The notes under the pieces are model-generated. The model saw only the letters and a program-made list of their open reading frames with translations. It did no database searches and was not told the origin of the DNA. A program made the translations under genes and the position numbers. A stretch of 64,000 nucleotides of DNA, taken from Bacteroides ndongoniae. Lineage in GTDB: Bacteria > Bacteroidota > Bacteroidia > Bacteroidales > Bacteroidaceae. Positions 12,357-53,295 of this stretch are shown in pieces. Every line of letters begins with the position of its first letter. Positions within the stretch are counted from its first letter, which is position 1. The stretch is taken from assembly GCF_900108345.1 (NCBI RefSeq), contig NZ_FNVV01000013.1, positions 718,944 through 782,943 on the forward strand, written 5' to 3'.

Positions 12357-12489
12357 GAGGAAATGATAATCCGACGGTATAAAAGGGAGAAGCAAACTAT
12401 AAACGTCCTGCCTGCTCATGGCATATAAATGGCTGATTCAATGTAGTTCGCTACCTACAAAAGTATGCGGCAACGGCCGGAATATAAAC

Positions 12490-30184: not shown

Positions 30185-30240
30185 AACGAATAAAATAACA
30201 GGTACTGGAATAACCATTTTTAATTTAATTTTTACATCTT

Positions 30241-31269
30241 ATGAAGAAAAGTTTTTTGATGCTTGGCGTGGCTGTAGCAGCACTGGCAAGCTGTTCGAAT
30301 GAAGAAGTCGTGGATATGCCGCAGAGCCGGGCAATCCAGTTCGAGACTTTCGTGAACCATTCAACGAGAAGTAGTGTGACCGAAACAACGGAAGAAAATC
30401 TTAACAAGTTCTTCGTTTTCGGAAACTATGGAGAGGGCACGTGGACTCCCGTGTATACCAATGTCGAGGTAACAGGAGGAAATGTGGGAGATCAATCAGG
30501 TTGGAATCCTGTACAGACCGCTTATTGGCAATCGGGCGAGAAGTATCGTTTCGGAGCTTATTCTGATGGGAATAGCAAAATCGAGAACGAGAACGTGGAT
30601 TTCATCGAGGGTGAGCAGAAACTGACGTTCACAGATTACACGGCAAACAATGCCAAAGACCTGATCGTGGCCATACCCGATGAAAAGACCGCACAAGCTT
30701 CTGATAATACTCCGGTAGGCTTATCTTTCTACCACATGCTGTCTCAGGTGAAGTTCACCTTCACGAACACGGACTCCCATGACTACATCATGAAAATCGA
30801 AAACATCAAGGTGAACGCGGTACAAACCGCTACGGGTACAGCGACTTATAAGGTGGAGAAACCGACTATCGCTTGGGAGACTGCAAGTGTCCCAAAGGCG
30901 GACTATGATTTCGAAACAATAGAGGATATTGCGGAGCCGGTGAAAGACGATTCTCACTCGACGACCTGCTTCGTCATTCCGCAAGACAACACAGAGTTGT
31001 CGGTTAGCTTTACCGCGATATTCTCTGATAAATCAGGGAAAATAGCAGAAAATAATTTCACCGGAAAGTTGAACTATCAAGGAGATAAAGAAGGTACAGA
31101 AAAAGGCAAATGGACTCCGGGCTTCAGGTACAACTATACGGTTGAAATCAACGGCAGCAAGATTGACCCGGATTTGAAACAACAGGTAATTGAGTTCAAG
31201 GTCGATGCTGTGGAAGACTGGACAGACGTGGACCAAACTCCAGTAACTCCGAATGAGGTCGGAGAATGA
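30241..31269 (+). CDS. Fimbrillin family protein (probable major subunit)
   Basis: A 342-residue lipoprotein precursor (FLMLGVAVAALASCSNE). It has the fimbrillin two-domain beta-sandwich layout: an N-terminal prodomain with an arginine cleavage-type site (FVNHSTRSSV), the YWQSGEKYRFGAY motif, LSFYHMLSQVKFTFTN, and a C-terminal donor-strand region (QQVIEFKVDAVEDWTDVD). It is followed by a stable mRNA hairpin (31305-31328), often seen after an abundant subunit, which supports its being the main shaft protein. Codon use is more AT-rich than in the next three genes. Confidence 0.88.
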   Translation: MKKSFLMLGVAVAALASCSNEEVVDMPQSRAIQFETFVNHSTRSSVTETTEENLNKFFVFGNYGEGTWTPVYTNVEVTGGNVGDQSGWNPVQTAYWQSGEKYRFGAYSDGNSKIENENVDFIEGEQKLTFTDYTANNAKDLIVAIPDEKTAQASDNTPVGLSFYHMLSQVKFTFTNTDSHDYIMKIENIKVNAVQTATGTATYKVEKPTIAWETASVPKADYDFETIEDIAEPVKDDSHSTTCFVIPQDNTELSVSFTAIFSDKSGKIAENNFTGKLNYQGDKEGTEKGKWTPGFRYNYTVEINGSKIDPDLKQQVIEFKVDAVEDWTDVDQTPVTPNEVGE

Positions 31270-31304
31270 TTGCTTGCAAATAGCTAAAGACATCACATCA
31301 GGTT

Positions 31305-31328
31305 ATGAGGGGTTGAATGTCCCCTCAT
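31305..31328 (+). terminator. Intra-operon hairpin after the major fimbrillin
   Basis: ATGAGGGG (31305-31312) and CCCCTCAT (31321-31328) form a perfect 8-bp stem, with no T-run. It probably limits read-through or stabilises the upstream mRNA, setting the ratio of shaft to tip subunits. Confidence 0.6.
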
Positions 31329-31406
31329 GGCCACTAACGGGAGTATCACTCCTTAATTTTACGCTGCCGGTAGCATCAGAAATGACCGGATATAAAGAAA
31401 CAATGT

Positions 31407-32375
31407 ATGATTATGAATAACAACCTATTCAAGACCTTGTTCATACCGGCTGTAGCCTGCCTGCTGGGAGCCTGTACGGAAAGCACGGGTCCGGACATGG
31501 AGGCAGGCGATGACAGTCTGGCGATCCGTTTCGCCGGTCCTGCCGTGACACGAGCCGCCATCGACGACGCAGACGACATGCAGACCGACGGGAACTCGTT
31601 CAGCGTTTGGGGCAGCTATACCGCCGTGACGGGCGGTACGGCCACGAGCGTGTTTGACGCCGAGAAGGTGACATGCCTTTCCGGCATGTGGGGTTACGAG
31701 GGCACGAGATACTGGCTCCCCGGTAACACCTACGACTTCTACGCCCTCTACCCATCCGCGGAGACGCTGGGCGATGCCGTGTCCTCTGTCGCCTGCACGG
31801 ACGGCACTTTTACCGTCAACGGCTTCGACGCCACGAAAGGGTACGACCTGATGACGGCGAAAAAGACGGGTATTTCCGTCGTGGCAGGCCAGACTCCCGG
31901 TGCGGTAGCCCTCAAATTCCAACATCTGCTGGCACGCCTCACCTTCGTGGCACGCAGCGAGGGAGGCAACGCCACGGTACGTTCCATCTCCCTTGAGGGG
32001 CTGGCTGTCAAGGGCGACTACGACGACAACGCAGAAACTGCGTGGAACAACACGACAACGGGGAAGGTCAGCGTGAAGAAAGAGACCAACGTAACCCCTG
32101 CCGGAAACGCGAACGTGTCGGGCGACCTGCTGCTCATTCCGCAATCGCTTGCGGGCGGGGTGAAGCTGACCGTCATCTACGACACCGATGCCGAGACAGA
32201 AAAGTCCGCTTCCTACACCTTGCCTGCCACCACCGTGAGCATGTGGGAGGCGGCGAACCATTACCGTTACTCGTTCACCCTCACCGGCGGAGGCTACATC
32301 GTGTTCGACCCGCCCACGGTCAACGCATGGAGCGACGCCATAGGCGGGAACGTAACCATCGACGTGACCCAATAA
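31407..32375 (+). CDS. Fimbrillin family protein (minor subunit)
   Basis: A 322-residue lipoprotein (LFIPAVACLLGACTEST; the start may be at 31413, MNNNLFK). It shows the fimbrillin pattern: RFAGPAVTRAAI cleavage region, YWLPGNTYDFYALYPSAE, the VALKFQHLLARLTFVAR motif and a terminal V-N-A-W-S-D strand. It is more GC-rich than the preceding subunit. The downstream genes follow with gaps of about 30 nt. Likely a minor or adaptor pilin. Confidence 0.85.
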   Translation: MIMNNNLFKTLFIPAVACLLGACTESTGPDMEAGDDSLAIRFAGPAVTRAAIDDADDMQTDGNSFSVWGSYTAVTGGTATSVFDAEKVTCLSGMWGYEGTRYWLPGNTYDFYALYPSAETLGDAVSSVACTDGTFTVNGFDATKGYDLMTAKKTGISVVAGQTPGAVALKFQHLLARLTFVARSEGGNATVRSISLEGLAVKGDYDDNAETAWNNTTTGKVSVKKETNVTPAGNANVSGDLLLIPQSLAGGVKLTVIYDTDAETEKSASYTLPATTVSMWEAANHYRYSFTLTGGGYIVFDPPTVNAWSDAIGGNVTIDVTQ

Positions 32376-32409
32376 CCTTATTATAAGCTATCTGTAACCT
32401 GACGATAAA

Positions 32410-33561
32410 ATGAACATCCAAATGAAGCAACGATACATACTTCCGGCCCTCCTGCTCCTCTGCGCCGCCTGCCAGCAGGAGGAATGGGCGCAGCCCGAAG
32501 CCGACAGTTCCGACGCCATCCGCTTTGCCGCCCCGACCATTACCGTGGAGGAACTCACCCGGAGCACGTTCCACGACGCATTTCCTACCGGCGGCACATT
32601 CGGTGTATTGGGCTACTGCGTGCCCTACCAGCGCGGTAGCGACACCGAAATGGACTGGGCATCGGGCAGCGCGAACTGGGGCAACAAGAGCGGCAACGCC
32701 TTCCCCGACGTGTTCTTCAATCAAGCCGTCACCTACAACGGCTCGGCCTGCACTTATGACTATAATAACAGTGGCGGCCCACGAAAATGGTACAACACGA
32801 CGCAGAATCAGGAGGCGATCTCCCCCGACAACTACCGGTACACCTTCTTCGCCTATTACCCGATGGACGATTTTACAGTGGAAAGTCCTACCAATGCCAC
32901 CACACGGGGCGTGCCGAAACTGACGTTCACCATGCCGTTCGCCGAGACGGGCGATGTAGCGACTACCACGTTGGACGACAAGGAGACGCCCGACGCGATG
33001 GTCTCCGTCGTCTATAACCACCTGCGCACCACGGGAAACGTGCGCTTCAATTTCAGCCATATCATGACGGGCTTGGGCTTCGCCGTGAACAACTACAATT
33101 ACGGGGGAGATGATGAAACTGTTACCGTCAAGCGCGTTACCTTGTCGGGCAACTTCACTCGCTCGATTACCATAGATTTCAGCAAGAACACCAACGAAGA
33201 CGGATTCTACACCTACAGCGGCACCTATCCCGGCACATACGTGATATATAACAACGAGGAAGGGTTTGCAATAGCTCCCAACAGTTCCGTCCCCCTGATA
33301 GGCGACAAACACCTGCTTCTGTTGAGCAACGCCACGGACGGCACTTATTTCGGCGAGAACGTGAAGGTCCATGTCGAATACACCTACAGGGGGGAAGCAA
33401 AGAACGCCTCTGCCGAACGTCCGACGCAGTTCCAGCCCCGTGCGGGCGTCCGCTATACGGCGCAGCTTAACTTCGTGGGCGAAACCTTCGCGCTGAACTT
33501 CATCGCCGCCGAGGACGAGTTCTGGGAAGACGGGGGCGACAGCGACGTCTCAATCCAATAA
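32410..33561 (+). CDS. Fimbrillin family protein (minor subunit)
   Basis: A 383-residue lipoprotein (LLLLCAACQQE; in-frame Met codons at 32410 and 32422 are both possible). Fimbrillin features include IRFAAPTITVEELTRS, the YRYTFFAYYPMD block, FNFSHIMTGLGFAVNN and the C-terminal RPTQFQPRAGVRYTAQLNFV. A charged insertion (GGDDETVTVKR) sits between the domains. It probably acts as an adaptor between shaft and tip. Confidence 0.85.
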   Translation: MNIQMKQRYILPALLLLCAACQQEEWAQPEADSSDAIRFAAPTITVEELTRSTFHDAFPTGGTFGVLGYCVPYQRGSDTEMDWASGSANWGNKSGNAFPDVFFNQAVTYNGSACTYDYNNSGGPRKWYNTTQNQEAISPDNYRYTFFAYYPMDDFTVESPTNATTRGVPKLTFTMPFAETGDVATTTLDDKETPDAMVSVVYNHLRTTGNVRFNFSHIMTGLGFAVNNYNYGGDDETVTVKRVTLSGNFTRSITIDFSKNTNEDGFYTYSGTYPGTYVIYNNEEGFAIAPNSSVPLIGDKHLLLLSNATDGTYFGENVKVHVEYTYRGEAKNASAERPTQFQPRAGVRYTAQLNFVGETFALNFIAAEDEFWEDGGDSDVSIQ

Positions 33562-33586
33562 AGCAACAACTGAAAACAGCATAAAG

Positions 33587-35959
33587 ATGAAAAAGATATT
33601 TTATTACTTCCTGCCGGTGGCCGCCATGCTTTTGCCGACAGCCTGCACCACGGAGGAGGACTTTGGCGGCGGTACCGTTCCGCCCGGCGACGGATTCACC
33701 ATCGAGGCCGTCTGCCAAAACATGCTGCCGCAACAAGTCGTCACCCGCTCGGCCATCGCCAAGGACGACAAGGAGAAGCGTATCAACCAGCTCTACCTGT
33801 TCTTCTTCGACGAAAACGACGACTATCTGCAATCGAGCAACACGAAAGTATTCTCGCCGTATATGGCTCCGTCGGCGAATACGAGCAATGTCAGCATTCC
33901 TACGGACGTGTTTGTAGATCAAACGCTCGCCCAAAAAACCACCATCTACGCCTTGGCCAACGTGACTCCGGAAGTGGTAGCCGATGCCGACGGTGACGGT
34001 TATCCCGACAACTTCCCCCAAGGGGGCAAAGACGGGAAAACTCCCAAGGAGCTGCTCGAAGCGTTCGTGTACGACCCTGCCAATTACACCCCTGATACCC
34101 ACGATGCCATCACGACCCTGCCCAGCACGGGAATGCCGATGGCAGGCAAAAGCGCGACTACCGTGGACCTCACCAAGAAGGGAAGCCTCACGATGCAACT
34201 CAAGGCACTGATGGCCCGTATCGACATCAACATCAGTATCGATTCCGACCACTCGGACGAGAGCGGACAACTGCCCCGTCTCTCCATTGCGGAATGGGGC
34301 GTGTACAACATGCCTACCGCCGTGCCCCTGACAGAGCCTGCCGATGGCCAGACCAAGCTGAATACCGATGAACCATACCGCAATGTAGAAAACATACCGA
34401 GCGATGCCGTCGTTTACAACCACGGCGGGGCCGCCTCCCTTACCTTCTACATGTTCGAGAACATGATTGCCCCGGACGAAGATCCGGAGAGCTATAAGTA
34501 TCCGGCCGGAGTGGTAGACGATGTTGACAAACAGCGATGGAAGCCGAAGTTAGTGAATGAAAACAGCAAGGCCACCTATTTCAAGATGAGAGCCTACTAC
34601 ACCACCTATAACGGCGACCCCTCCCTGCCTGCAGGACAGGATAACACCACCATCGAGGCCGAATACACCTTCTATCTCGGAGGTGACCCGGTGAAGGACT
34701 TCAAGGTGATACGCAACAGGCACTATGCCAATAACATCGTCATCAGCGGGCTGACCCATGTGGGTAACAACCCGGACCACATCACCTTCGATGCCCGTGT
34801 CAACATCACCGAGCAGAACAACCCGTTCTACCTGTCCATGCTGCGCGAACGCGAGCACGATGCCCACTACTGTGTCACGCCTTTGGACGTGTACCTTTTC
34901 AAGAAGGAGGCAAATCCGCAGATGACCGTCAGCATAGCCGACCCGGAAAGTCACACTTGGATACGCATGGAACGTGTGCCCGCCGAAAATATGGAGTATG
35001 GAACACTCTCTGACGACATGAGTGCAGATACCCATTTGGCGACCGGACAGGCATGGACTGCGGGAAACGGCAAACGCAAATACTTCACCACGGACTTGGT
35101 GACCAAAACCCTTGCGAATAATACCGAATATACCATTAAGACGAACCGTGACCGTATTTATTTCTACTTGGACGAAAACCTAAGCACGAAAGACCGCACC
35201 GCCACCGTAAACATCTCGTACACCGACGACAAGACGCAAACGCCACGCATCCGTACCATTGAAATCGTACAGCACGGTCTGTTGCCGGTAACCGTGCCGG
35301 GAGACGACGACAATCCCACGCAGCAAATCTATGTAGAAGCCTACGAAGAGTATATTTCCCATTACGACCCCCTGAACGAGTTTGAAGGGAATTATATCTA
35401 TGACGGATTGGAATGGGGGTTGAATGGAGAATACTTGGGTTGGAATTTGGTCATACAAGGAAAAGATGAAACTTGGTGCAATATCTATTACAACGGGGCT
35501 GAAGCTACCCAGCATATTATTTCGAAAGCAGGACAATCAACAATGAACCTGAACGAAAAGCCCCGTTCTGCTGCGGAGTATTGCTACAACAAGAACAAGC
35601 GCAATGACAACGGAGTCGTACAGGGCATGACCAATTCTTCCGGTTGGTTCTTGCCCGGCATTCGCCAATTAGAGGCCATACTAACCTCCTATTACAATAC
35701 ATATCCGGAGTTTCAAAACAATTTTTATTGGTCATCGGCGGCGGGGAAAAGACGGGTTGGTATTTGGCCATATGATTACTATGAGGACAACAGTTATGCC
35801 CGTGCCACCAAGGCCCTGCCAGACGGTGGTTATGCAGAAAGTGACTGGGACGATACGTACACGAGTGAGAACGGCACCACCGGCAAAGCCCCCCGTACCG
35901 GCACCTACCTCCGCATCCGTGCGGCCTATGTACCGCCCAGCGGCGTTACCATCGAATGA
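33587..35959 (+). CDS. Large fimbrillin-like tip protein (DUF4906-type)
   Basis: A 790-residue lipoprotein (YFLPVAAMLLPTACTTE). The N-terminal half is fimbrillin-like (QVVTRSAIAKDDKEKRINQLYLFFFDENDDYL), typical of Mfa3-5 or DUF4906 tip proteins. The C-terminal 200 residues form an additional domain with a GWFLPGIRQLEAIL..FYWSS motif resembling FISUMP/fibrobacter-type lectin-like folds (SGWFLP-W-SS). That domain is the likely ligand-binding adhesin. It is the last gene of the operon and is followed by a terminator. Confidence 0.82.
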   Translation: MKKIFYYFLPVAAMLLPTACTTEEDFGGGTVPPGDGFTIEAVCQNMLPQQVVTRSAIAKDDKEKRINQLYLFFFDENDDYLQSSNTKVFSPYMAPSANTSNVSIPTDVFVDQTLAQKTTIYALANVTPEVVADADGDGYPDNFPQGGKDGKTPKELLEAFVYDPANYTPDTHDAITTLPSTGMPMAGKSATTVDLTKKGSLTMQLKALMARIDINISIDSDHSDESGQLPRLSIAEWGVYNMPTAVPLTEPADGQTKLNTDEPYRNVENIPSDAVVYNHGGAASLTFYMFENMIAPDEDPESYKYPAGVVDDVDKQRWKPKLVNENSKATYFKMRAYYTTYNGDPSLPAGQDNTTIEAEYTFYLGGDPVKDFKVIRNRHYANNIVISGLTHVGNNPDHITFDARVNITEQNNPFYLSMLREREHDAHYCVTPLDVYLFKKEANPQMTVSIADPESHTWIRMERVPAENMEYGTLSDDMSADTHLATGQAWTAGNGKRKYFTTDLVTKTLANNTEYTIKTNRDRIYFYLDENLSTKDRTATVNISYTDDKTQTPRIRTIEIVQHGLLPVTVPGDDDNPTQQIYVEAYEEYISHYDPLNEFEGNYIYDGLEWGLNGEYLGWNLVIQGKDETWCNIYYNGAEATQHIISKAGQSTMNLNEKPRSAAEYCYNKNKRNDNGVVQGMTNSSGWFLPGIRQLEAILTSYYNTYPEFQNNFYWSSAAGKRRVGIWPYDYYEDNSYARATKALPDGGYAESDWDDTYTSENGTTGKAPRTGTYLRIRAAYVPPSGVTIE

Positions 35960-35990
35960 CAACCGCCGGCTTTAAGGCCGACTTTACTCG

Positions 35991-36040
35991 CTGCCCGTCT
36001 GTAGGAAACCCCTTTACAGGCGGGCAGTGCTGTTTTTATT
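35991..36040 (+). terminator. Terminator of the fimbrial operon
   Basis: CTGCCCG-t-CTGTA (35991-36003) pairs with TACAG-g-CGGGCAG (36015-36027), followed by GCTGTTTTTATT. Confidence 0.9.
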
Positions 36041-36166
36041 CCCCCGGTATGTCTTTGGCCTGTACAACCGACATGCACACGCACGTTTTATACGTCGGTC
36101 GGGATAGAAAAAGGTGTGACAATATCGAAAGAACCTATTCAACAAAAAGAGGTTTGCAGCCACCCC

Positions 36167-36214
36167 AAAAGCCCCTCGAACCTATGGCAAGCAAAGGCAT
36201 CAAGGGGCTTTTCT
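36167..36214. terminator. Second, bidirectional terminator
   Basis: AAAAGCCCCT (36167-36176) pairs with AGGGGCTTTT (36203-36212). The A/T flanks suit both the fimbrial operon and the convergent acyltransferase. The 390 nt between the two genes hold nothing else that I can support. Confidence 0.75.
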
Positions 36215-36350
36215 TCTATCAGCGAAACGGTAATAGACATTTGGGTACGCGTTATCCGATTGTGTCGTCCGCGAAACACCATCGGCGCCGGAACTTTATC
36301 TGTCATCCGATAGAAATACGATAATAAATGTAGGATTTCTTTACCGCTTT

Positions 36351-39592: not shown

Positions 39593-41050
39593 TCAACGCT
39601 TGGGCTTCTTGCCGATGGAAGGGCGCATCATGCGGCTCGCCATCCTCATGCAGCGAAGCGCCCATGCCCGGTTGTCCTCGTCTTCATCACGTCCCCATTT
39701 GAGGTCGCTTCCGCCACCTCCTCCGCCACGTGTTTCGGCAAACGTAGTGGCATCATCGACCATACCGAGAAAGAGCATCGTGGCGCAGCGCATGACTTCC
39801 GCTCCCCGTTCCGCCACGGAACGCACGAGCGTGTCGTCGAAAAGTTGCCGTTCGGAAGGCTTCATCCGCGCCGACAGTTCCCTCCACTCATCGACCATAT
39901 TTTCCAGCATGGCGTCCTTGAGTAGGCTGTCCACTTTGGAGTGGACATCACGGGAGTATTCGTAGGCTTCCTCCTTGAGCTGTTCCGTGCGTTCCTCAAT
40001 GGCATCCATGTTTGCCTTGAAGTCGGAAAGCTGTCGGTCGGCGGTTTGTAGCTTCTCCTGTTTGTCTGCCAGTTTCCCTTGGATAGCAGTCAGCTCTTTT
40101 TCGAGCTTTTCTTTCTCGGCAGATAGGGTCAAAGCATCATCTTTCCGGGTATCCATATCATTTTCGAGTGCCGACAGTTGAGCCTCTTTTTCGCTCTTCT
40201 CCCTTTTCAAGTTTTCCACCATCGAGGTCAAACCTTTGACTCTGCGCTCTGCCAGCCGAATGTCCGAATGGAGGGCGGACAGGACTTCCTGATGTCGGCC
40301 AATCTGTTGCTCAATGGTGGTACATTCTTCCGAGAGCATACGGCGGTATTCTTCCGTCGTCCTGTGCCGTGCGCCGGTCTCGGCGACGCTCCGGCCTCTC
40401 TCCATTCCCCACTTCGTGTTGACCTCGGCGAAAAAGTCCGTATGGAGCTGTTTCATCCTCGCGCTATATTCGAACTTGTCCTTTCCGGCGAATATCTCCT
40501 TGTACGCAAACCTCCCGTCTTTGATTGGCAGAAGCGTACAATGCACGTGCGGATTTAATTCGTCGAGGTGTACAATGAAGGCGGCTATATTCTGCTCGCC
40601 GTATCTGCCGCAAACGAATGCATAGACATCCTTCGCCCAACGTTCGATGTCGCTCTTCCTTTTGATGCGGGTATTGTCCGCACCTTTTTCAAAATCCACC
40701 TTCTGCGTGCCGAAAGCGAGTTCGTGCATCCGCTCCCGCGAACCGCCGAAAATGATGTTTACCACCGTGCGGTATTTCGGTTCAACCAATCCCTCGTTGG
40801 GGTCTTTGATCCCGCGACGGCCCAATATGTCCGCTATCCGTTCCGGGATATTGCGGCTCGTGTCGATGGGGCGAACCTTGCCTCCGGGCACAATCTCGAA
40901 GTTCAGATGTTTGCGGGTGGGGTCGTAGTTGCCCTTGCTCATGGCGTACTTCTCCGCCTCTTCGCTGCGATTACGCAGGTGTTCGTTGCCTTGGGCGGCG
41001 GTGATCCCTTTCGATACCTGAACATCGAGAACCTGTTTTGCATTTGCCAT
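39593..41050 (-). CDS. MobV-family relaxase (Pre/Mob)
   Basis: A 485-residue protein from MANAKQVLDVQVSKGITAAQ; the longer open frame (to 41110) runs into the oriT region and is not preferred. The relaxase domain (1-215) contains the MobV histidine-rich metal motif in HLDELNPHVHCTLLPI and the N-terminal HLRNRSEEAEKY region. Residues about 225-400 are a long coiled coil, and the C-terminus is glycine-rich then basic (ETRGGGGGGSDLKWG). It nicks at oriT and leads the T-strand. It is the only relaxase in the window. Confidence 0.93.
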   Translation of the reverse strand: MANAKQVLDVQVSKGITAAQGNEHLRNRSEEAEKYAMSKGNYDPTRKHLNFEIVPGGKVRPIDTSRNIPERIADILGRRGIKDPNEGLVEPKYRTVVNIIFGGSRERMHELAFGTQKVDFEKGADNTRIKRKSDIERWAKDVYAFVCGRYGEQNIAAFIVHLDELNPHVHCTLLPIKDGRFAYKEIFAGKDKFEYSARMKQLHTDFFAEVNTKWGMERGRSVAETGARHRTTEEYRRMLSEECTTIEQQIGRHQEVLSALHSDIRLAERRVKGLTSMVENLKREKSEKEAQLSALENDMDTRKDDALTLSAEKEKLEKELTAIQGKLADKQEKLQTADRQLSDFKANMDAIEERTEQLKEEAYEYSRDVHSKVDSLLKDAMLENMVDEWRELSARMKPSERQLFDDTLVRSVAERGAEVMRCATMLFLGMVDDATTFAETRGGGGGGSDLKWGRDEDEDNRAWALRCMRMASRMMRPSIGKKPKR

Positions 41051-41081
41051 ACTGTTTTCGTGTTGTTTCGGACAATTCCCC

Positions 41082-41139
41082 GTGTCCCAGCTTGCTGCTT
41101 GCTTGGACACTTCTCCCTGCGACGTCAGTCAGCAGGGGT
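41082..41139. other. Candidate oriT: tandem hairpins beside the relaxase gene
   Basis: GTGTCC (41082-41087) with GGACAC (41105-41110) and CCCTGC (41115-41120) with GCAGGG (41132-41137) form two adjacent stems 32 nt upstream of the MobV start, the usual place for MobV origins. The nic site cannot be fixed by eye. The region 41051-41271 contains no gene. Confidence 0.5.
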
Positions 41140-46411: not shown

Positions 46412-46726
46412 TTAATCCGTCACCTCGTAATAATAACTTAACTCGTCATCTTTCAGGTTCTCTACCGCATATTGACCTGCCTGCTCCCAAAGGGTGTTGT
46501 AAAGTGTCGCAAATTCCGGTTTCGTTTCATAATACTGCCAGATTTTATGATTGAGTACCAATATCAGTTCTGTGAGGTATTTATAGTTATCTTTCCATCC
46601 CTCGAAAGCACGTTTGAAAGTGTCTTTTATAGCTGACAGACCGAATCGGTCCGCTATTGAGAAGTCCTCCCAAAAAGTTGTCTGTAACTCGTAACCGTTT
46701 TCTCGCATAAATTCTCTAAATGTCAT
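46412..46726 (-). CDS. Hypothetical 104-residue helical protein
   Basis: Starts MTFREFMRENGYELQTTFWE. It is all-helical and acidic (DDELSYYYEVTD end), with aromatic-rich segments (NHKIWQYYETKPEFATLYN). No family is recognised. Single-gene unit: its terminator lies to the left and hairpin block 5 to the right. The leader has the AAACTTAAAATTTAAAG motif shared with neighbouring units. Confidence 0.7.
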   Translation of the reverse strand: MTFREFMRENGYELQTTFWEDFSIADRFGLSAIKDTFKRAFEGWKDNYKYLTELILVLNHKIWQYYETKPEFATLYNTLWEQAGQYAVENLKDDELSYYYEVTD

Positions 46727-46783: not shown

Positions 46784-46967
46784 ACCGAAAGGCTGATTAT
46801 TTTTCTGCCCACGGGATTGGCGGCAAGTGCGGGCAAGGAGGCAACGGTAAATACGCTCTCCAACGAAGGCGGAGAGGAAGATTTTCCGGCTGCAAGCGCC
46901 AGCGGTCCTTGTCGGGACTGGTAGCCGACAATCGAACTTTGCAGAAACAATAACCGGGCTTTCGGCA
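46784..46967. promoter_or_regulatory. Hairpin block 5: candidate single-stranded-DNA promoter (Frpo-like)
   Basis: The left arm (46784-46845) and the reverse complement of the right arm (46900-46967) share CCGAAAG, TTATT, TTCTGC, GATTG, CGGC and CAAGGA in order. The right arm carries GAACTTTG (46934-46941), one base off TAnnTTTG, followed by CAG; a TTG lies 22 nt upstream. The GAACTTT segment is unpaired (the left arm reads CCACGGG). A small extra stem GGTAC/GTACC (46771-46786) sits in the leader. Confidence 0.78.
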
Positions 46968-47198
46968 TGGAGTGTGTCTGGGAAACGGCTGTAAAGAGTA
47001 AAACGGAGAGGCTAAGGTGTTATAAGAGGATTGCTTTCCGGCTGGATAGCCGGAGTACAAGGGGGGGGGACGGACCGCACTTCGATAAAAGGGAAAAGGT
47101 TATGAAGATATAAAGGGGTAATTCCGGCAAAAGGATTCAGGACACATCTATTGCCAATGTATCCCGAACCCGTACCGGTCATTATCTGTACCGAATGT

Positions 47199-47888
47199 TT
47201 AGGAAACCCATTTGTAACCTTCGTCCGTCAGTTCAAAATATTCGTCCATTCCCGGTTTCACAAAAAACATGATTTCAAAGGCTTCGTTGCTTCCACCTTC
47301 GGGTATCGTCATGTCGATTTCTCCATTGCGGGCTGTTCCTCTTCCCGTATTGAAACCTAAGTCTTCGTCTGCATAGGCGTAATGAAATTCCACATCCGGA
47401 AATATTTCGGAAAGTTTTTGGATAAGCTGTGGCACGCCGTTCCATGCCGTATCGAACCAAAGTATGTTCGGCTCTTCAAAACTCTGGTTATAGGCATTCC
47501 ATTTTGTACCCCATGTGGCGATAGACCACTCAAACCAAGTGGGATAACCGTACTTTTTCCGGTTTTCCAGATACGTTTCTCCAAGTTGCAGCGCTTCTTG
47601 TCTGTCTTTTTCCGCCAATCCTCTCATCCATTGAACGGCTCTCAAATCGTCATCGTCCAATAAAAAATAGAATGGCTGCCGCTGCATTGCTTCGAGACAT
47701 CTCATACCGAAATCTCCACTACTGTTTTTTTCTATCAACAGTTCTTCGGGCATAGGAATGATGTTGTTGAAGTCGATGTAACAAGGCGTATTGTCATCAT
47801 CGGTTTTACCTTTTAAGAAATTCATTACTTTTTGTACTGTTTCCCGGTCTGCGTTTATTTCTAAACGGTTTGTCACATGATTAGGCAT
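47199..47888 (-). CDS. Api92/YubB-like ferredoxin-fold domain protein
   Basis: A 229-residue protein. MPNHVTNRLEINADRETVQK, then YIDFNNIIPMPEEL, and W-S-I-A-T-W-G-T-K-W-N-A-Y in the middle are the classic features of the Api92/DUF1281 family, found in phages and plasmids. The W-G-T-K-W-N block is the strongest signature. The second member in this window (25882) shares the opening but not the C-terminal region. The family function is unknown; a place in an entry-expressed region suggests an establishment or anti-defence role, which is inference. Confidence 0.9.
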   Translation of the reverse strand: MPNHVTNRLEINADRETVQKVMNFLKGKTDDDNTPCYIDFNNIIPMPEELLIEKNSSGDFGMRCLEAMQRQPFYFLLDDDDLRAVQWMRGLAEKDRQEALQLGETYLENRKKYGYPTWFEWSIATWGTKWNAYNQSFEEPNILWFDTAWNGVPQLIQKLSEIFPDVEFHYAYADEDLGFNTGRGTARNGEIDMTIPEGGSNEAFEIMFFVKPGMDEYFELTDEGYKWVS

Positions 47889-47935
47889 AATCTTAGTTTT
47901 TTGAAATTGTTAATACTTATTTCCCCTCTTGTCGG

Positions 47936-48137
47936 CTCTTTCTTCCTGAACCGCTTTTGGGTTTTACGGATGCGGTACATGGCTGTCGGGAAAACTTCAT
48001 ACGGTGGCTTTTCTTGCCAAATTACTCTTACCCCTGTAAGGAAGAATTTTGCAAGAAATGCACTTCAAGCCACCGGATCAAGTGCGACGGCCTACCTTTG
48101 CATCTGGTAAAACCAAACCGGTGATGGAAAGAAGAAA
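47936..48137. promoter_or_regulatory. Hairpin block 6: candidate single-stranded-DNA promoter (Frpo-like)
   Basis: The left arm (47937-48027) and the reverse complement of the right arm (48040-48137) share TTTCTTC, CCG, GTTTTA, ATGC, GTCG, GGTGGCTT and AAATT in order. The right arm holds TACCTTTG (48093-48100); there is no clear TTG at -33. The box is opposite GCGGTACATGG and largely unpaired. In folded + strand DNA it would drive the Api92-like gene to the left. Confidence 0.8.
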
Positions 48138-48263
48138 AGACGGGAGATATGCGAAAGACCGGGGTCGGTATAAAGGGTGGATATTGCTCCGTGAGTGATT
48201 ATAAAAAAGGAATAGGGCTGATTATAAAAGGTGACGGTTCTGCGTTCGGCCATTCGATAAAGG

Positions 48264-48299
48264 ATACCGCAACCACCTCTGGCGGGTGCATTGCGGTAT
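48264..48299 (-). terminator. Terminator of the 48314 gene
   Basis: ATACCGCAA (48264-48272) pairs with TTGCGGTAT (48291-48299), with a second CACC/GGTG stem inside. It lies 15 nt after the stop. Confidence 0.7.
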
Positions 48300-48313
48300 T
48301 TGTGGACAGCATT

Positions 48314-48841
48314 TTATGCTGCTTTGTCCGGCTTGCGCTGCCTTGTTTTCCAGCCGTACACGGCGGCTACATACGGATAGAGGGAACGTGTTCTCCGGCG
48401 GAAACCTTCTTCGTCGATTTCACGGTTGTAAATCTTATCGGCGATACGTTCCGCTTCGTCACGGTCTTTGGCGATACGATATAAGGCGTAGTTCGTACCG
48501 TCATGATGGCCCATCCGTCCGCGAATGTTGTAGCCGTCGCCGTACCATTCTGCATCGTCGCACTGGGATTTCAAAATATCGGCAATGGTGCTGCCCAATA
48601 TTTGATAGCCTTGTCTCCGGCCTTTCCATAATCCCAAGTTGCCGAACACGACAATAATGCCGTCCACTTCTTTATTTAGGTTGCTCCGTTCATCATCCAA
48701 CCAGCGATATACTTCTTCAGCCCATTCTTCGTCGCTGACCTCGTAACTGTCATCGTCCAATATTTCCCTCTGGGAATTTTGATAGTATTCTTTTGCCTTT
48801 TCGTCCAACAGGTCATAGCTTGACCAAATTATCTGTTTCAT
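48314..48841 (-). CDS. Hypothetical 175-residue protein
   Basis: Starts MKQIIWSSYDLLDEKAKEYY. It is acidic in the first half (DDDSYEVSDEEWAEEVYRWL) and basic in the tail (RRRTRSLYPYVAAVYGWKTR). The middle contains GDGYNIRGRMGHHDGTNYAL, a compact-looking region. I know this kind of protein only as an unknown of Bacteroides conjugative elements. Single-gene unit between its terminator and hairpin block 7. Confidence 0.7.
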   Translation of the reverse strand: MKQIIWSSYDLLDEKAKEYYQNSQREILDDDSYEVSDEEWAEEVYRWLDDERSNLNKEVDGIIVVFGNLGLWKGRRQGYQILGSTIADILKSQCDDAEWYGDGYNIRGRMGHHDGTNYALYRIAKDRDEAERIADKIYNREIDEEGFRRRTRSLYPYVAAVYGWKTRQRKPDKAA

Positions 48842-48898
48842 ACGCTTTGAATTTTAAGTTTGACTTTCATTTTTTATCCCTGCCTTCGGAGGGTTTCC

Positions 48899-49112
48899 CT
48901 CGTCCGGCGGAATTTGATTTTACGTGCGGACCACAAGGCGGACAGAAGGGAAATAAGGCAAGGAGGAAGCGGATAGTCCCGTGGACGGTTTCATTTGTGT
49001 TGAACAAGTATTGACGAGCTTGCGAGTTGATGGTTGTTAACCACAAATGAATCCGCGCCTTGCCGATTCCCGACCGCCTTAACTTTGCACGGGAAAATCA
49101 ATGGACGACGGC
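48899..49112. promoter_or_regulatory. Hairpin block 7: candidate single-stranded-DNA promoter (Frpo-like)
   Basis: The clearest case. The left arm (48900-49006) and the reverse complement of the right arm (49027-49111) share TCGTCC, TTTGATTTT, GTGC, AAGGCGG, GGAA, GGCAAGG, GCGGAT and TTCATTTGTG in order. The right arm holds TTG (49060-49062), 17 nt, TAACTTTG (49080-49087). The stem is paired on both sides of the box, which faces GGACCAC and is melted. The gene driven would be the one at 48314-48841. Confidence 0.88.
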
Positions 49113-49180
49113 GGACTCTTCGTGTGGAGTATGAAGGAGTATAAAAGTGGGGACGTTCCGGAACGGTAACGAGCAAAACA

Positions 49181-49202
49181 AAAGCGGCTTCCAAGCCGCT
49201 TT
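49181..49202 (-). terminator. Terminator of the ssb gene
   Basis: AAAGCGGCTT (49181-49190) pairs with AAGCCGCTTT (49193-49202); on the minus strand it is followed by TGTTTTG. It lies 19 nt after the stop. Confidence 0.85.
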
Positions 49203-49220
49203 GTCCGGATAAGGCAGAGG

Positions 49221-49601
49221 TTATTTCTTGCCTTTTCCCGGTTTCTTTTCCGGCTCGGCGGGAGTTTCCTCCTTTTCGACGGCCGGATAGAACTTGGTGG
49301 TGACCATCACGATACGGCTGTGCTTTACGCCGTCCTTGTCGGACCACTCTTCGGGTTTGAAATAGCCCTCCACGGTCAGGAGCGTACCTTTGGTCAGTTG
49401 GTCGAACGAACCGGCATTCTCTTTTTTGCGCCATGCTTCCATGCTCATTAGAGCTGATATGCGGCTGGTTTCATCGCCGTTCTTCTCCTGACGGCTGATT
49501 GCCAATGGGAAACGTGCTACACTGGTGTTGGTGAACTGGCGGATTTCAGCGTCCTTTGCTACGAATCCGGTTACTACGAAACTGTTCTCGATCTTTTTCA
49601 T
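49221..49601 (-). CDS. ssb: Single-stranded DNA-binding protein
   Basis: A 126-residue SSB-type OB-fold protein: VVTGFVAKDAEIRQFTNTSV, RFPLAISRQEKNGDE, SMEAWRKKE and TVEGYFKPEEWSDKDGVKHS correspond to the usual SSB strands. The C-terminus is Lys/Pro-rich (EPEKKPGKGKK) and lacks the acidic DDDIPF-type tip that recruits host partners, so it may simply coat entering ssDNA. The gene is led by hairpin block 8, whose left arm begins only 13 nt before the ATG. Element-borne ssb in a leading region is well known from F-type plasmids. Confidence 0.92.
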   Translation of the reverse strand: MKKIENSFVVTGFVAKDAEIRQFTNTSVARFPLAISRQEKNGDETSRISALMSMEAWRKKENAGSFDQLTKGTLLTVEGYFKPEEWSDKDGVKHSRIVMVTTKFYPAVEKEETPAEPEKKPGKGKK

Positions 49602-49613
49602 TGCGATTGTTTT

Positions 49614-49829
49614 TTGAAGTTAATAAATCATTTTTACGGTGCGGAAAAAGTAGGTGCAGTCAAGGGGATGCACCAAGGATAGCGCATAAATACTCTTTAT
49701 TTTGGAGCGCAGCCCCAAACCGAAGGCCCGATAAAGGAAGATTTATGCGGTACGCCATTGGTCAAGGCCGCATGGCCGTTCCCGTCTGCATACTAACTTT
49801 GCAACGGAATAATGATGATGACTTCGATA
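49614..49829. promoter_or_regulatory. Hairpin block 8: candidate single-stranded-DNA promoter of ssb (Frpo-like)
   Basis: The left arm (49614-49702) and the reverse complement of the right arm (49729-49828) share GAAGT, ATCATT, CG-TGC, AGT-G-TGCAG, ATGC-CC and GCGCATAAAT. The apex is a strong hairpin (CGCATAAAT/ATTTATGCG with CTTTAT/ATAAAG inside). The right arm carries TAACTTTG (49794-49801), opposite a mismatched stretch. Here the leader would be only about 15-40 nt, so the transcript starts almost at the ssb ATG. Confidence 0.8.
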
Positions 49830-50322
49830 GAAAACGGTCGCGAAAAAGACGAGGCAAGACAGATCGTGGCGGATTTTGGTTCGAAAGGACTTGTCCGCCT
49901 GACAACACAAGGGACGGCTTATTCCGGCATGAAGCCGGGAAGAATACCAGGGATAGGAAACATGCCGTTCACTGGCAAGATGGAAACGGCACAAGCGGGT
50001 ATGCCGTCCGACCAACCCATAGGGCTGCTTTTGCGGTGGATTTCAACGGATGGAGAGCCGACAATCGGCGTGTACGGTGTATCAGTGTGGGGCTGTCCTG
50101 CCTGTTCCCGGTCGAAGGAATGGAGAAACGGCAAAGGGAAAAAGGCAGGACGCTGCCTTGTGTGTAAAGCGGCGAGGTAGCGTTCGTGCGAGTGAACGTT
50201 CGATATAAAAGGATATGGCGTAGCCAGAAGGTATAAAGGGGTATTTCCGAAGGAAACGGTATGAGCGTATGTTCGAAAATAAAAGAGGGTATCGCACCGG
50301 CATATCTGTCTTAGCCGGTGTA
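49830..50322. other. Non-coding interval right of hairpin block 8
   Basis: No coding frame is supported. It contains a CCGGC-ATGAA-GCCGG stem near 49926-49941 and two copies of the TATAAA-GG motif (50204-50212 and 50232-50241) that recur to the right of other blocks. Confidence 0.5.
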
Positions 50323-50352
50323 AACGGGCTGAAACTGATACTACAGCCCGTT
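50323..50352 (-). terminator. Terminator of the 50360-50889 unit
   Basis: AACGGGCTG (50323-50331) pairs with CAGCCCGTT (50344-50352), preceded on the left by another stem (GCACCGGC/GCCGGTG). Confidence 0.75.
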
Positions 50353-50359
50353 ACTGTAT

Positions 50360-50565
50360 TTACCTTTTTTCTGTTTCGGTCTGTAATTCTACCGGCTCGT
50401 CATCCCATGTCAGTTCTTTGCCGAGAAGTTTGTAAACAGTCCCTTTGGGGAGTTCTATCTCGATTGGTATGTTGTACACTTCTTCCAAATACTCCCAATG
50501 CCCACAACGGGCTTTTCGGGCATAATCCATTCTGTTCCGTCTTTATTTACTGCCAACCATGCCAT
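50360..50565 (-). pseudogene. Frameshifted small gene after the LPD11 gene
   Basis: The first half reads MAWLAVNKDGTEWIMPEKP and the second, one base out of frame, RCGHWEYLEEVYNIPIEIEL then PKGTVYKLLGKELTWDDEPV, ending at TAA 50360-50362. The 206-nt length is not a multiple of three. The two halves read as one 68-residue protein of the MAWLAVNKDG type carried by related elements. Either a true frameshift mutation or a sequencing error near 50515. Confidence 0.65.
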
Positions 50566-50601
50566 AATATTACATTTTTAATCTGTTTCTTTGTGATAAT
50601 T

Positions 50602-50889
50602 TTATTCTTCTTGTGTTATCATTCTCTTGCTGTATTCCAAAATTTTATCCATCGTAAGCCACTCCGGTTTTTCGTCCTCTTTGAAACTATCATGCAGTTT
50701 TATCATAAACTCAATTTGCAATTTTTCGTCACCAGCCCATAAGGATTTGGGGTGTCTGTTACCGTAATTAAGGTAATACTCACAATCTGACTGTAAGCGT
50801 CCTAATAACTGGTATCTGAAAACTGAATCTCTGTGTATTACTTCGTCTACCGTTACTCTTCCATTTGAATTTGTTACATCGTTTGCCAT
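50602..50889 (-). CDS. LPD11-domain protein
   Basis: A 95-residue protein. RYQLLGRLQSDCEYYLNYGN, K-S-LWAGDEKLQIEFMIKLHD and the P-E-W-L-T end-block match the large-polyvalent-protein-associated domain 11 (LPD11), otherwise found fused into giant mobile-element polyproteins. It is free-standing here. The role is unknown; the domain is found in proteins injected or expressed on element entry. It is the first gene left of hairpin block 9. Confidence 0.82.
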   Translation of the reverse strand: MANDVTNSNGRVTVDEVIHRDSVFRYQLLGRLQSDCEYYLNYGNRHPKSLWAGDEKLQIEFMIKLHDSFKEDEKPEWLTMDKILEYSKRMITQEE

Positions 50890-51140
50890 AATCTATAAAA
50901 TTTTAAGTTTTCTTTTTTTCCCTCTTGTAGCACCAACTACTTTCGGGCCTGATTTAATTATGTCGCCTCGAAAGGTGTCATGGCTCTTTATGCAAGGTTT
51001 TACGATTAAATACTACCCGTGCGAAGCGGAGGGTGGAGATTTTGTCGTGAACCGTCAGGCTTGACCTTGCATACAAGAAAGACATGACAAGTACCTTTGC
51101 GACACAATTCATATCAGGCAGCCCGAAAGCGATGTGCGAA
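50881..51140. repeat. Long direct repeat, copy 1 (block 9 leader)
   Basis: From the start codon leader to about 40 nt past the -7 box this segment is nearly identical to 52772-53020; I count only scattered single-base differences and short indels. The genes to the left differ completely, so only the promoter cassette has been copied. Confidence 0.85.
50956..51112. promoter_or_regulatory. Hairpin block 9: candidate single-stranded-DNA promoter (Frpo-like)
   Basis: The left arm (50956-51018) and the reverse complement of the right arm (51035-51112) share GTCGC, AAAGGT, TCATG, TATGCAAGGT, and GGTT-ACGA-AAAT further in, closed by CTACCC/GGGTGG. The right arm holds TACCTTTG (51092-51099) and TTG 22 nt upstream. 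In folded + strand DNA it would drive the LPD11 gene. It is nearly identical to block 10. Confidence 0.82.
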
Positions 51141-51298
51141 TACAGGGAAGAGAAGGTCTCTTGCAAAAGGTCCGATAGTTTATATAAAAGGGTTGCAGCG
51201 AAAAGAAAAATATAAATGGATATTCCAGGCTGTATAAGAATTTTGATTGTGAGGATAAAAAAAGGTATTGAGCCAGCATGTTTATCGTGAGAAAAGAA

Positions 51299-51332
51299 AC
51301 GGGCTGCAACTGGCAGTTCCAGTTCAGCCCGT
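51299..51332 (-). terminator. Terminator of the five-gene unit 51366-52771
   Basis: ACGGGCTG-c-AACTGG (51299-51313) pairs with CCAGTT-c-AGCCCGT (51319-51332), followed on the minus strand by TTCTTTTCTC. Confidence 0.85.
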
Positions 51333-51365
51333 AAAAGTACATCGGAGGTCTCTTGCCTGTTCCCG

Positions 51366-51623
51366 TCAGAAATGGGCTACCATAATCCGATGTTTGAAAA
51401 TTCTGTTTTTATTGCTCGGTCGCCGTTGGTTTATCCAGATATGGTGTGCTCCGTATCCGAATATGAAATACTCATCGAGCGGGGTTTCGTTCTTCAAGCG
51501 TTCCATACTTGCACGAAGTTCGGTTTCATCGACTGAAAGAAGAATCGTGTTCATGATTCGGAAATAGATTTCTTCCGCTTCATCGCTATAGCGGCAAAAG
51601 ACGTGTTCGATTGTTACATTCAT
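51366..51623 (-). CDS. Hypothetical 85-residue protein
   Basis: The start at 51623 (MNVTIEHVFCRYSDEAEEIY) is preferred to an upstream Met, because it follows the previous stop by 4 nt. It has helices with many acidic residues and ends basic (RPSNKNRIFKHRIMVAHF). No family is recognised. It is the last gene of a five-gene unit led by hairpin block 10. Confidence 0.65.
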   Translation of the reverse strand: MNVTIEHVFCRYSDEAEEIYFRIMNTILLSVDETELRASMERLKNETPLDEYFIFGYGAHHIWINQRRPSNKNRIFKHRIMVAHF

Positions 51624-51627
51624 AGTT

Positions 51628-51924
51628 CTATTGGTTTGATTGAGGTGTTTCGGGTACATTAGTCATTATTGATTCTCCGTCTTGATTGAAAATCTCTATT
51701 GTCGGGTTGCCGTCGTTTTCTTCGGGGAGCATGAATTCCGATGTATCGGTCAATGCTTGCCACTCTTCATAGCAAAGACGGTTGTCAATGATGTTCGACA
51801 CGTCCTCACAGTTCCATGAGCGGACGATTGCCTCGGCTTCTTCGTAACTATTTGCTTTCACACTGAAATAATCCCGTTCCCAACTTGTAACCTTACGGTC
51901 TTGATAAAATTTGTATTTTCCCAT
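51628..51924 (-). CDS. Hypothetical acidic 98-residue protein
   Basis: Starts MGKYKFYQDRKVTSWERDYF. Residues 15-45 (FSVKANSYEEAEAIVRSWNC) form a compact strand-helix resembling the N-terminus of small antirestriction or PRTRC-like proteins, without a clear match. The second half is acidic (LPEENDGNPTIEIFNQDGE). It may be an anti-defence protein by context only. Confidence 0.65.
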   Translation of the reverse strand: MGKYKFYQDRKVTSWERDYFSVKANSYEEAEAIVRSWNCEDVSNIIDNRLCYEEWQALTDTSEFMLPEENDGNPTIEIFNQDGESIMTNVPETPQSNQ

Positions 51925-51936
51925 TATCCTTGTTTT

Positions 51937-52269
51937 TTAACTGTTTACTTCTACAATATCCTCGATTCTGCCATATAGTATCGAGCGTAATGCTGTTTTG
52001 TCAGTAGCATAATACTCGTGAATACTTCCGTACTGTTTGACGAAATACCGTTTGAGAACGTCGGAAAAGTCAAAGTGATAACCGCTCAAGGCAATTCCAC
52101 GTTTGAAATAAATGCTCTCTCGCACGTTACGGGTAATCCAGTTTTTTTCTTCCCGGTTTAACTTGCCTCCGTTATTCAGGTGTACCCGCAATTTGTAAAC
52201 CTTGCTGTCCTGTAATATCTCCAGTTCGGGAATGTCCCATTTGACGAATTTTGTTGCTATCTGTATCAT
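51937..52269 (-). CDS. Hypothetical 110-residue protein
   Basis: Starts MIQIATKFVKWDIPELEILQ. The mid part (LNREEKNWITRNVRESIYFK) is helical, followed by aromatic strands (SGYHFDFSDVLKRYFVKQYG). It resembles small polyvalent-protein-associated domains of Bacteroides mobile elements, with no defined function. Middle gene of the unit led by hairpin block 10. Confidence 0.65.
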   Translation of the reverse strand: MIQIATKFVKWDIPELEILQDSKVYKLRVHLNNGGKLNREEKNWITRNVRESIYFKRGIALSGYHFDFSDVLKRYFVKQYGSIHEYYATDKTALRSILYGRIEDIVEVNS

Positions 52270-52283
52270 ACGTTTGCTATCGT

Positions 52284-52460
52284 TTAATCATGGATAACCA
52301 CTTCATCACGGTATTCTGAAATTTCCTTGCCGCTTTCAAGGCAGACAACTATGGTATTGCCATAGTCGCCCACAATTGTGCCTTCCGTGTAACCTTTATA
52401 TGGATCGTGTAGCGTGCAGGATAAGCCGATAATATCGCTGTCTTCTTCGTATTCGTACAT
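52284..52460 (-). CDS. Hypothetical acidic 58-residue protein
   Basis: Reads MYEYEEDSDIIGLSCTLHDP then YKGYTEGTIVGDYGNTIVVC and ends EVVIHD. It is rich in acidic residues and beta-strand pattern, and may fold as a small barrel. It lies 14 nt upstream of the 51937 gene and 17 nt downstream of the 52478 gene, in the same orientation, which supports coding. Confidence 0.65.
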   Translation of the reverse strand: MYEYEEDSDIIGLSCTLHDPYKGYTEGTIVGDYGNTIVVCLESGKEISEYRDEVVIHD

Positions 52461-52477
52461 AGTGAATGTGTTTTAGG

Positions 52478-52771
52478 TTACAGTTTGATGTTCCATTTGC
52501 CTTGCGAGAATATCCGAAAGCTCACGTATTCGTCCTCTAACTCGTATGTCAGTATGCGGATATAGATTTTGTCTTTGGCTGCCAAAGAGGCTACCAGTTC
52601 ATCAATTTCTTTTTCCGGGTATTCCCAACGGGAAGAAAATTCGGCATCTACCGTGTCGCCATACCGGTTGACAAGGCCGTTGAAATTATCGTCCAGAAAT
52701 GCCTCTATCTTATCGAGGTCCTGTTTGTTTTCCGTACTTGCGTGGAAAATGTTTGTTGCATAGTTTGCCAT
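52478..52771 (-). CDS. Hypothetical 97-residue protein, first gene after hairpin block 10
   Basis: The start at 52771 (MANYATNIFHASTENKQDLD) is chosen because the longer frame extends into the non-coding block. Conserved-looking W-E-Y-P and D-N-F-N-G-L-V-N-R segments are followed by a strand-rich half (KIYIRILTYELEDEYVSFRI) with a FSQGKW end. It is acidic. It heads a five-gene leftward unit and has the AAACTTAAAATTCAGAG leader shared with other units. Confidence 0.7.
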   Translation of the reverse strand: MANYATNIFHASTENKQDLDKIEAFLDDNFNGLVNRYGDTVDAEFSSRWEYPEKEIDELVASLAAKDKIYIRILTYELEDEYVSFRIFSQGKWNIKL

Positions 52772-53020
52772 AACTCTGAATTTTAAGTTTTCTTTTTTCC
52801 CTCTTGTAGCATCTGCTACTTTCGGGTTTGATTTAATTATGTCGCCTCGAAAGGTGTCATGGCTCTTTATGCAAGGTTTCACGATTAAATACTACCCGCG
52901 CGAAGCGGAGGGTGGAGATTTTGTCGTGAACCGTCAGGCTTTGACCTTGCATACAAGAAAGACATGACAAGTACCTTTGCGACACAATTCATATCAGGCA
53001 GCCCGAAAGCGGATGTGCGA
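52772..53020. repeat. Long direct repeat, copy 2 (block 10 leader)
   Basis: Partner of 50881-51140; see that entry for the comparison. The matched region ends just right of the -7 box, after the GGCAGCCCGAAAGC stretch. Confidence 0.85.
52834..52992. promoter_or_regulatory. Hairpin block 10: candidate single-stranded-DNA promoter (Frpo-like)
   Basis: Nearly identical to block 9 over more than 200 nt. The right arm holds TACCTTTG (52972-52979), and the arms pair over about 60 nt: GTCGC, AAAGGT, TCATG, TATGCAAGGT, then GGTTTCACGA/TCGTGAACC. One left-arm change relative to block 9 (GGTTTTACG to GGTTTCACG) improves pairing with the unchanged right arm. It would drive the five genes 52771-51366. 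Confidence 0.85.
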
Positions 53021-53295
53021 ACACAGGGAAGGGAAGAACTCGTATAAAAGGTTGATGGCTTATAAAAAGGGGGTGCAGCGAAAAGAAAAATATACCGTAG
53101 AATGTTTTCTCTTTGTGCTGTACAATAGGGAACGGAGTATTTTAATGAAGTCTGGGAGAAGGTTTAGTTTAGTCCGTTAGCCTATATATATGCTAAATCA
53201 AAGTAAACTATATTTAGGCAGACAAATTTGCCTGCCTATAAGTTTTTCCTTACCTTTGTATGAACTAAAGAAGACTTGTTTTTCTTTTGGCTGCA

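Follow-up and report, generated by a model that had tools for sequence, protein, structure and literature searches.

Promoters that act on single-stranded DNA (ssDNA) are known in detail from enterobacterial plasmids. One of them, Frpo of plasmid F, is reportedly both a promoter and a primer site, to go by the title of a 1997 paper by Masai and Arai. Its stem-loop is described as restoring -10 and -35 boxes, recruiting RNA polymerase in vitro and being needed for early expression in the recipient (PMC9849209). Here we analyse a stretch of 64,000 nucleotides (nt) of the Bacteroides ndongoniae genome (contig NZ_FNVV01000013.1, denoted C2:718944-782943; hereafter the window), in which hairpin blocks on the + strand precede nine leftward gene units of a mobile element. 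In all nine units a TAnnTTTG box (GAACTTTG in one block) lies on the gene-distal arm of the hairpin and is directed away from the gene. We consider it probable that these blocks are Frpo-like promoters, active only on the single strand during conjugation and bearing the signature of sigma-ABfr. It also seems reasonably likely that the Bacteroidales possess an ssDNA promoter system of their own, unrelated to Frpo and read with sigma-ABfr, which would be present in several copies per element across the integrative and conjugative elements (ICEs) and plasmids of the order, and which would switch on the genes of single-strand-binding protein (SSB), of anti-CRISPR proteins and of other entry functions from the transferred strand (T-strand), although these genes lie behind the tra operon. 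The nine blocks are listed below; z compares the fold of the + strand, from the gene start to the box position plus 30 and with DNA parameters, with 100 dinucleotide shuffles.

12157-12341, + strand: hairpin block 1, class A; box TACCTTTG at 12314; precedes the leftward gene 11762-12103; z -2.1
14809-15029, + strand: hairpin block 2, class A; box at 15002; precedes leftward 14250-14732, followed by PcfK (13807-14229) and PcfJ (12539-13801); z -2.1
26545-26762, + strand: hairpin block 3, class A; box at 26735; precedes the leftward gene 25885-26463 (weak DUF1281_C); z -4.3
46797-46958, + strand: hairpin block 4; box GAACTTTG at about 46935; precedes the leftward gene 46415-46726; held-out model match, E 1.5e-5; z -2.9
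47950-48122, + strand (ends taken from the fold): hairpin block 5; box at 48093; precedes the leftward DUF1281_C gene 47202-47888; z -6.9
48914-49107, + strand: hairpin block 6, class A; box TAACTTTG at 49080; precedes the leftward gene 48317-48841; z -4.5
49617-49822, + strand: hairpin block 7; box TAACTTTG at 49794; precedes the leftward SSB gene starting at 49601; class A model weak (E 0.38); z -4.1
50950-51116, + strand: hairpin block 8, class B; box at 51092; precedes the leftward LPD11 gene 50605-50889; z -6.9
52829-52996, + strand: hairpin block 9, class B, near-copy of block 8; box at 52972; precedes the leftward gene 52481-52771; z -7.3

The starts at 14732 and 52771 are internal ATGs within longer listed open reading frames (ORFs). 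A preliminary description of this DNA had reported nine leftward units, each behind an imperfect hairpin whose far arm carries an outward-pointing TAnnTTTG, and this layout is borne out; the pairing that it proposed is likewise upheld against shuffled sequence, with z from -2.1 to -7.3 and blocks 1 and 2 the weakest. Three other boxes of the window behave differently: the interval ending at box 45915 reaches z -2.5 but its box arm is unpaired, and the boxes at 22784 and 27630 on the other strand have paired arms (z -4.0 and -3.6) and fall outside the pattern. Arm-paired boxes on the + strand also flank the window, on the left (L016 5206 and L015 4398) and, in a neighbouring CTnDOT-type ICE, on the right (L014 4985).

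Like Frpo1 and Frpo2 of F and ssi of ColIb-P9, the blocks are non-coding and lie ahead of entry genes that include ssb, and their folded stem, by prediction in their case, bears both promoter elements; in the known systems the transferred strand is the template (PMC9849209, PMC11541004), as is presumed for the blocks. They are also comparable to Frpo' and Frpo* of Samuel et al. 2024, candidate single-strand promoters ahead of anti-defence genes in diverse elements, which, unlike the blocks, were new candidates sought by E. coli consensus elements (PMC11541004). Unlike Frpo and ssi, which use TTGACA/TATAAT and lie in the leading region by the origin of transfer (oriT), the blocks use the TTG/TAnnTTTG of sigma-ABfr, occur in several copies per element, and in plasmids and elements of the CTnDOT type are found beyond the tra operon. 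Because both sequence and position differ, we regard them as Frpo-like in function and not by descent. Our covariance models R1 and R2 gave no match, at E up to 10, to one IncF ssb region in which the place of Frpo was assumed from position. Among the titles and abstract openings listed by searches of open-licence papers, none describes such an ssDNA promoter or hairpin for Bacteroidota, CTnDOT-type ICEs or pMMCAT-type plasmids, and the string 'Bacteroid' is absent from the main text of PMC11541004.

The blocks are not unique to the element of the window. A PcfK protein scan gave 66 genome loci, mostly from Bacteroidales, and 35 plasmid records, from which seven plasmid stretches around the match were used. 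At the 66 loci, which are partly redundant, 95 arm-paired boxes were opposite the PcfK strand and 20 on the same strand, compared with 289 and 236 for boxes without arm pairing. The 74 sources together held 941 boxes, 151 of them arm-paired and forming 80 clusters; 28 clusters had z <= -2.7, and the representative box of 25 of these was on the strand opposite the leading genes. Clusters were selected for pairing of the box arm on the box strand, and control clusters were selected alike. As a measure of chance, 360 kb of the same genome's chromosome (18 stretches) contained 309 TAnnTTTG boxes, of which 24 were arm-paired and one reached z <= -2.7. Since the GAACTTTG box escapes TAnnTTTG scans, block 4 is absent from every cluster count.

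As far as can be judged from sequence, the leftward genes have no ordinary promoter for transcription from duplex DNA. For this comparison and for the TTG counts we used a cut of z <= -2.0, which the window box at 12314 just misses, and kept 25 of the 32 clusters obtained, seven being removed by hand as not block-like (window 22784 and 27630, L028 7979, L047 9306, L071 5135, L081 6962 and L044 4074). No sense TAnnTTTG was found within 250 nt from the box towards the gene in any of the 25, versus 49 of 127 ordinary genes of the same genome; this agrees with the preliminary description, which had set its reading against ordinary leftward TAnnTTTG sites. A TTG is present 15-23 nt ahead of the box in 16 of the 25 (shuffle mean 3.3, maximum 12 in 1000 shuffles), and the two block elements agree with the sigma-ABfr consensus, given as TAnnTTTG at -7 and TTTG near -33 (PMC7366714). 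On the same strand, TATAA(A/G)nGG-like motifs occur 3' of the window boxes (near 12380, 47104, 48168, 49139, 50205-50230, 51180 and 53042-53060), and to the right of the hairpins they are found in 8 of 25 clusters, as opposed to 1.7 in mononucleotide shuffles and 1 on the complement.

Among the products of window genes behind blocks are SSB, LPD11 and DUF1281_C proteins, with PcfK and PcfJ encoded in one run. Three annotated genes and a further model match are relevant here:

13807-14229, - strand: PcfK-domain gene (domain of AcrIIA9) in the gene run behind block 2; Pfam PcfK, 1.5e-57
20852-20958, + strand: degenerate block-like match of the class A model; box at 20931; E 1.6e-4
39596-41110, - strand: Mob_Pre (MOBV-type) relaxase gene; Pfam Mob_Pre, 9.4e-16
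49224-49601, - strand: SSB gene behind block 7; Pfam SSB

Over the whole interval around the degenerate copy (20700-20961) the fold does not reach significance (z -0.8). The Pfam domain to which AcrIIA9 belongs is PcfK (PMC6739104), and one related plasmid gene carries the annotation 'Cas9 inhibitor AcrIIA9 family protein'. The same architecture is present in other ICEs and plasmids of the Bacteroidales, ahead of runs with SSB, PcfK, methylase and toxin-antitoxin genes. The gene content behind the blocks fits entry functions.

In 24 of the 28 clusters the box strand is more stable than its complement (mean -4.7 kcal/mol, Wilcoxon p 3e-5), the control figure being 18 of 37 among arm-paired boxes whose fold is not significant. 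A similar asymmetry was seen ahead of ssb in an E. coli IncF plasmid, where 6 of 7 frames gave the greater stability to the strand opposite the gene. Moreover, among the ten elements in which a block could be paired with a main relaxase, the box strand and the strand of the relaxase gene are opposite without exception. Six of these are plasmid records and four belong to B. ndongoniae, namely the relaxases at C2:805543, C2:1396699 and C1:2194182 and the Mob_Pre gene of the window, which is presumed to be the relaxase of the window's element and lies about 6 kb from the blocks at 46.8-53 kb. The survey of this genome relied on PF03432, Mob_Pre being seen within the window. Outside the ten fall five further PF03432 relaxases with no model match within 50 kb, as well as blocks with no PF03432 within 50 kb (e.g. 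C1:1474686-1477781, C1:1570078, C2:13388, C2:40604, C2:860849 and C2:904973-917887). Relaxase genes typically enter last (PMC11541004), and because oriT is presumed to lie between mob and tra, the box strand would be both the transferred strand and the template of the gene. RP4-like nic motifs in the oriT gaps were tried as markers and discarded, as the CTnDOT-type elements had candidates on both strands and pMMCAT a single poor one, none of them usable. It is the lack of a sense TAnnTTTG near the genes, the greater stability of the box strand and its polarity relative to the relaxase that lead us to the single-strand promoter reading.

Two alignable classes of block can be distinguished. Class A (14 sequences) has an invariant CTTG and TAnCTTTG with 17-19 nt from TTG to box, and an internal loop of variable size holds or adjoins much of the box; the box of class B is paired, with offset bulges on its flanks. 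Since the aligned sequences were picked for TAnnTTTG, its presence is no evidence, and what counts are the constant C positions and the CTTG. Both classes appear to maintain their pairing through compensatory changes, RNAalifold giving changes on both sides in 12 of 22 predicted pairs for class A (14 sequences) and in 18 of 38 for class B (25 sequences). Near the hairpin apex (A1, A2), AATACC in class A and AATACTACC in class B are largely conserved.

The class A covariance model R2, trained on window and chromosomal blocks only, with no plasmids, was run over 31 sources. It gave 21 matches at E <= 1 in six plasmid stretches, every one opposite the leading-gene strand, and 20 of them are blocks (13 at E < 0.05 and 7 at 0.07-0.33), whereas there is no block at the remaining match (L091 9743, E 0.33). 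The preliminary description had proposed a covariance-model search of Bacteroidales plasmids and ICEs, and R2 thus recovers blocks in plasmids outside its training set. R2 also recovers block 4, off-consensus box included, which was not used in training; blocks 1 and 2 score E 2e-34 or better with the class A model but are both training members, and the blocks before 47888 and 49601 score weakly (E 0.55 and 0.38). The class B model adds two plasmid places, both training members. At 21 of the 22 plasmid places an annotated gene starts 40-340 nt beyond the hairpin, and for the last one an SSB gene is found in the near-identical record L088; as L083 and L087 are close relatives, these places are not all independent. 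Against the 18 control stretches, the two models together scored three times at E <= 1 and never below 0.1. Elsewhere in the B. ndongoniae genome, each of the eight class A matches outside training has an opposite-strand ORF of 155-246 amino acids (aa) at 15-77 nt from the hairpin, and three of the eight have a same-strand ORF too. Four tandem class A blocks at C1:1474686-1477781 are spaced about 1 kb apart, each beside an opposite-strand ORF of 161-246 aa.

In a sample of 198 genomes from the order, the class B model has matches at E <= 0.001 in 28, among them B. ndongoniae, and in 24 of 150 genera, some of the matches being short (e.g. positions 42-119) and possibly due to chance; the short matches in other genomes have an ORF on the opposite strand in 7 of 8 cases and on the same strand in 1 of 7. 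The class A model finds B. ndongoniae (13 matches) and one other genome in the order sample of 198, and B. ndongoniae alone at E <= 0.001 in a phylum sample of 198 genomes, so that, under genome-wide thresholds and the stricter filters applied to these samples, the modelled class A has a narrow range. CTnDOT-type ICEs and pMMCAT-type plasmids are among the carriers.

As to the surroundings, 20 ORF scans of the left-flank genes (L015, L016) revealed no recognisable type IV secretion system or relaxase. From about 53200 and into L014 extends a second, CTnDOT-type ICE (topoisomerase, hybrid kinase and response regulator, MobB, TraG), and this ICE has its own class B block. A group II intron (8909-9005 and 7039-8883, with a reverse transcriptase ORF) adjoins ArdC-like genes in the window, and fimbrillin, DUF3575 and DUF5119 genes occupy 27912-36321, the same gene types being found on block-carrying pMMCAT-type plasmids.

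Several results weigh against a single-strand promoter. The TTG at -33, which the preliminary description had noted as frequent, is missing from 9 of the 25 clusters. Antisense polarity is lacking in 3 of the 28 low-z clusters, and a low-z box of the other polarity stands in the left flank (L016 16059). When the scan was widened to 350 nt, before the removal by hand, 3 of 32 clusters had a sense TAnnTTTG; in two it lay beyond 250 nt, and the third is a removed cluster (L081 6962). Full-length class B matches in other genomes have an opposite-strand ATG ORF of at least 60 aa beside them in 8 of the 16 with room for it, and a same-strand ORF after the box in 8 of 20. The counts of G.T versus A.C at stem pairs found from both strands favour neither strand (13 to 12 and 3 to 2), and alignment-wide consensus folds with DNA parameters are weak, at -1.3 for the box strand versus -3.9 for the complement in class B, and at -4.2 versus -2.3 in class A. 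The identity of the box strand as T-strand is inferred from the rule that relaxase genes enter last, which pMV158, a plasmid of the MOBV relaxase type seen in the window, may not obey. A second relaxase-like gene of the other polarity exists in pMMCAT (49604-50551) and in NZ_CP072340, and is put down to embedded mobilizable units. Finally, the presumed oriT gap of plasmids and CTnDOT-type elements is separated from the blocks by the tra operon, and the blocks would enter only after it.

Pairing, motif, polarity, stability of the box strand, recurrence and relaxase orientation, that is, most of the predictions of the Frpo-like reading that sequence can address, nevertheless came out in its favour. 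We propose that the incoming box strand, presumably the T-strand, would fold into an imperfect hairpin in which the gene-distal arm becomes the non-template and the gene-proximal arm the template strand. In class A the internal loop at the box may ease melting. RNA polymerase of the recipient would then leave the stem onto the single-stranded template and read through the gene, yielding mRNA for SSB, anti-CRISPR-like and other entry proteins before a second strand exists. Once that strand is made, the hairpin would be lost and the box would point away from the gene, so that expression would terminate itself. RNA from the hairpin could also prime second-strand synthesis.

This last step touches on a different explanation, in which the blocks are single-strand initiation sites only, the folded strand recruiting primase or polymerase for second-strand priming with gene expression secondary. 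The several copies per element and the double role indicated for Frpo of F by the Masai and Arai title would agree with it, but priming needs neither a place ahead of leftward units nor conserved promoter motifs, and we consider it improbable. We give about the same small chance to ordinary duplex promoters, with the boxes serving small rightward genes or antisense RNAs and the hairpins being present incidentally or as protein-binding repeats. TTG and box do make a good duplex sigma-ABfr promoter, and small ORFs are annotated after some plasmid boxes; we rejected these ORFs as true products, since a shared product is limited to close relatives, TTG or GTG is the start codon of many, and several boxes have no following ORF of at least 35 aa. 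Moreover, the covarying arms take in the promoter and the stretch before it, which a duplex promoter leaves untranscribed, and the leftward genes would remain without a TAnnTTTG.

Less likely still are structured leaders of the leftward mRNAs, riboswitch-like or attenuators, with promoters further upstream. An RNA hairpin fits the covariation equally well, as does the absence of strand bias in the G.T/A.C counts, but a TTG-N17-22-TAnnTTTG on the antisense strand has no reason to persist in an RNA leader, individual sequences give a more stable fold as box strand than as mRNA strand, and no block scores above the threshold of any Rfam family. Lastly, the tandem gene-plus-block units, their near-identical copies and the similarity of the box to what is said to be the IntDOT target, GTAnnTTTGC, recall attC-like cassette sites, folded single-strand recombination sites that would shuffle entry genes; the TTG element and the constant polarity suit a promoter better, and we regard this idea, for which no attC search was made, as very unlikely.

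If the blocks are indeed single-strand promoters, the element would make protective proteins before the second strand is built. The same logic, carried by unrelated sequence and a different sigma signature in a dominant gut phylum, would suggest that expression from the T-strand is a general feature of conjugation and has evolved repeatedly, and any gene behind such a block in Bacteroidales would become a candidate entry or anti-defence gene.

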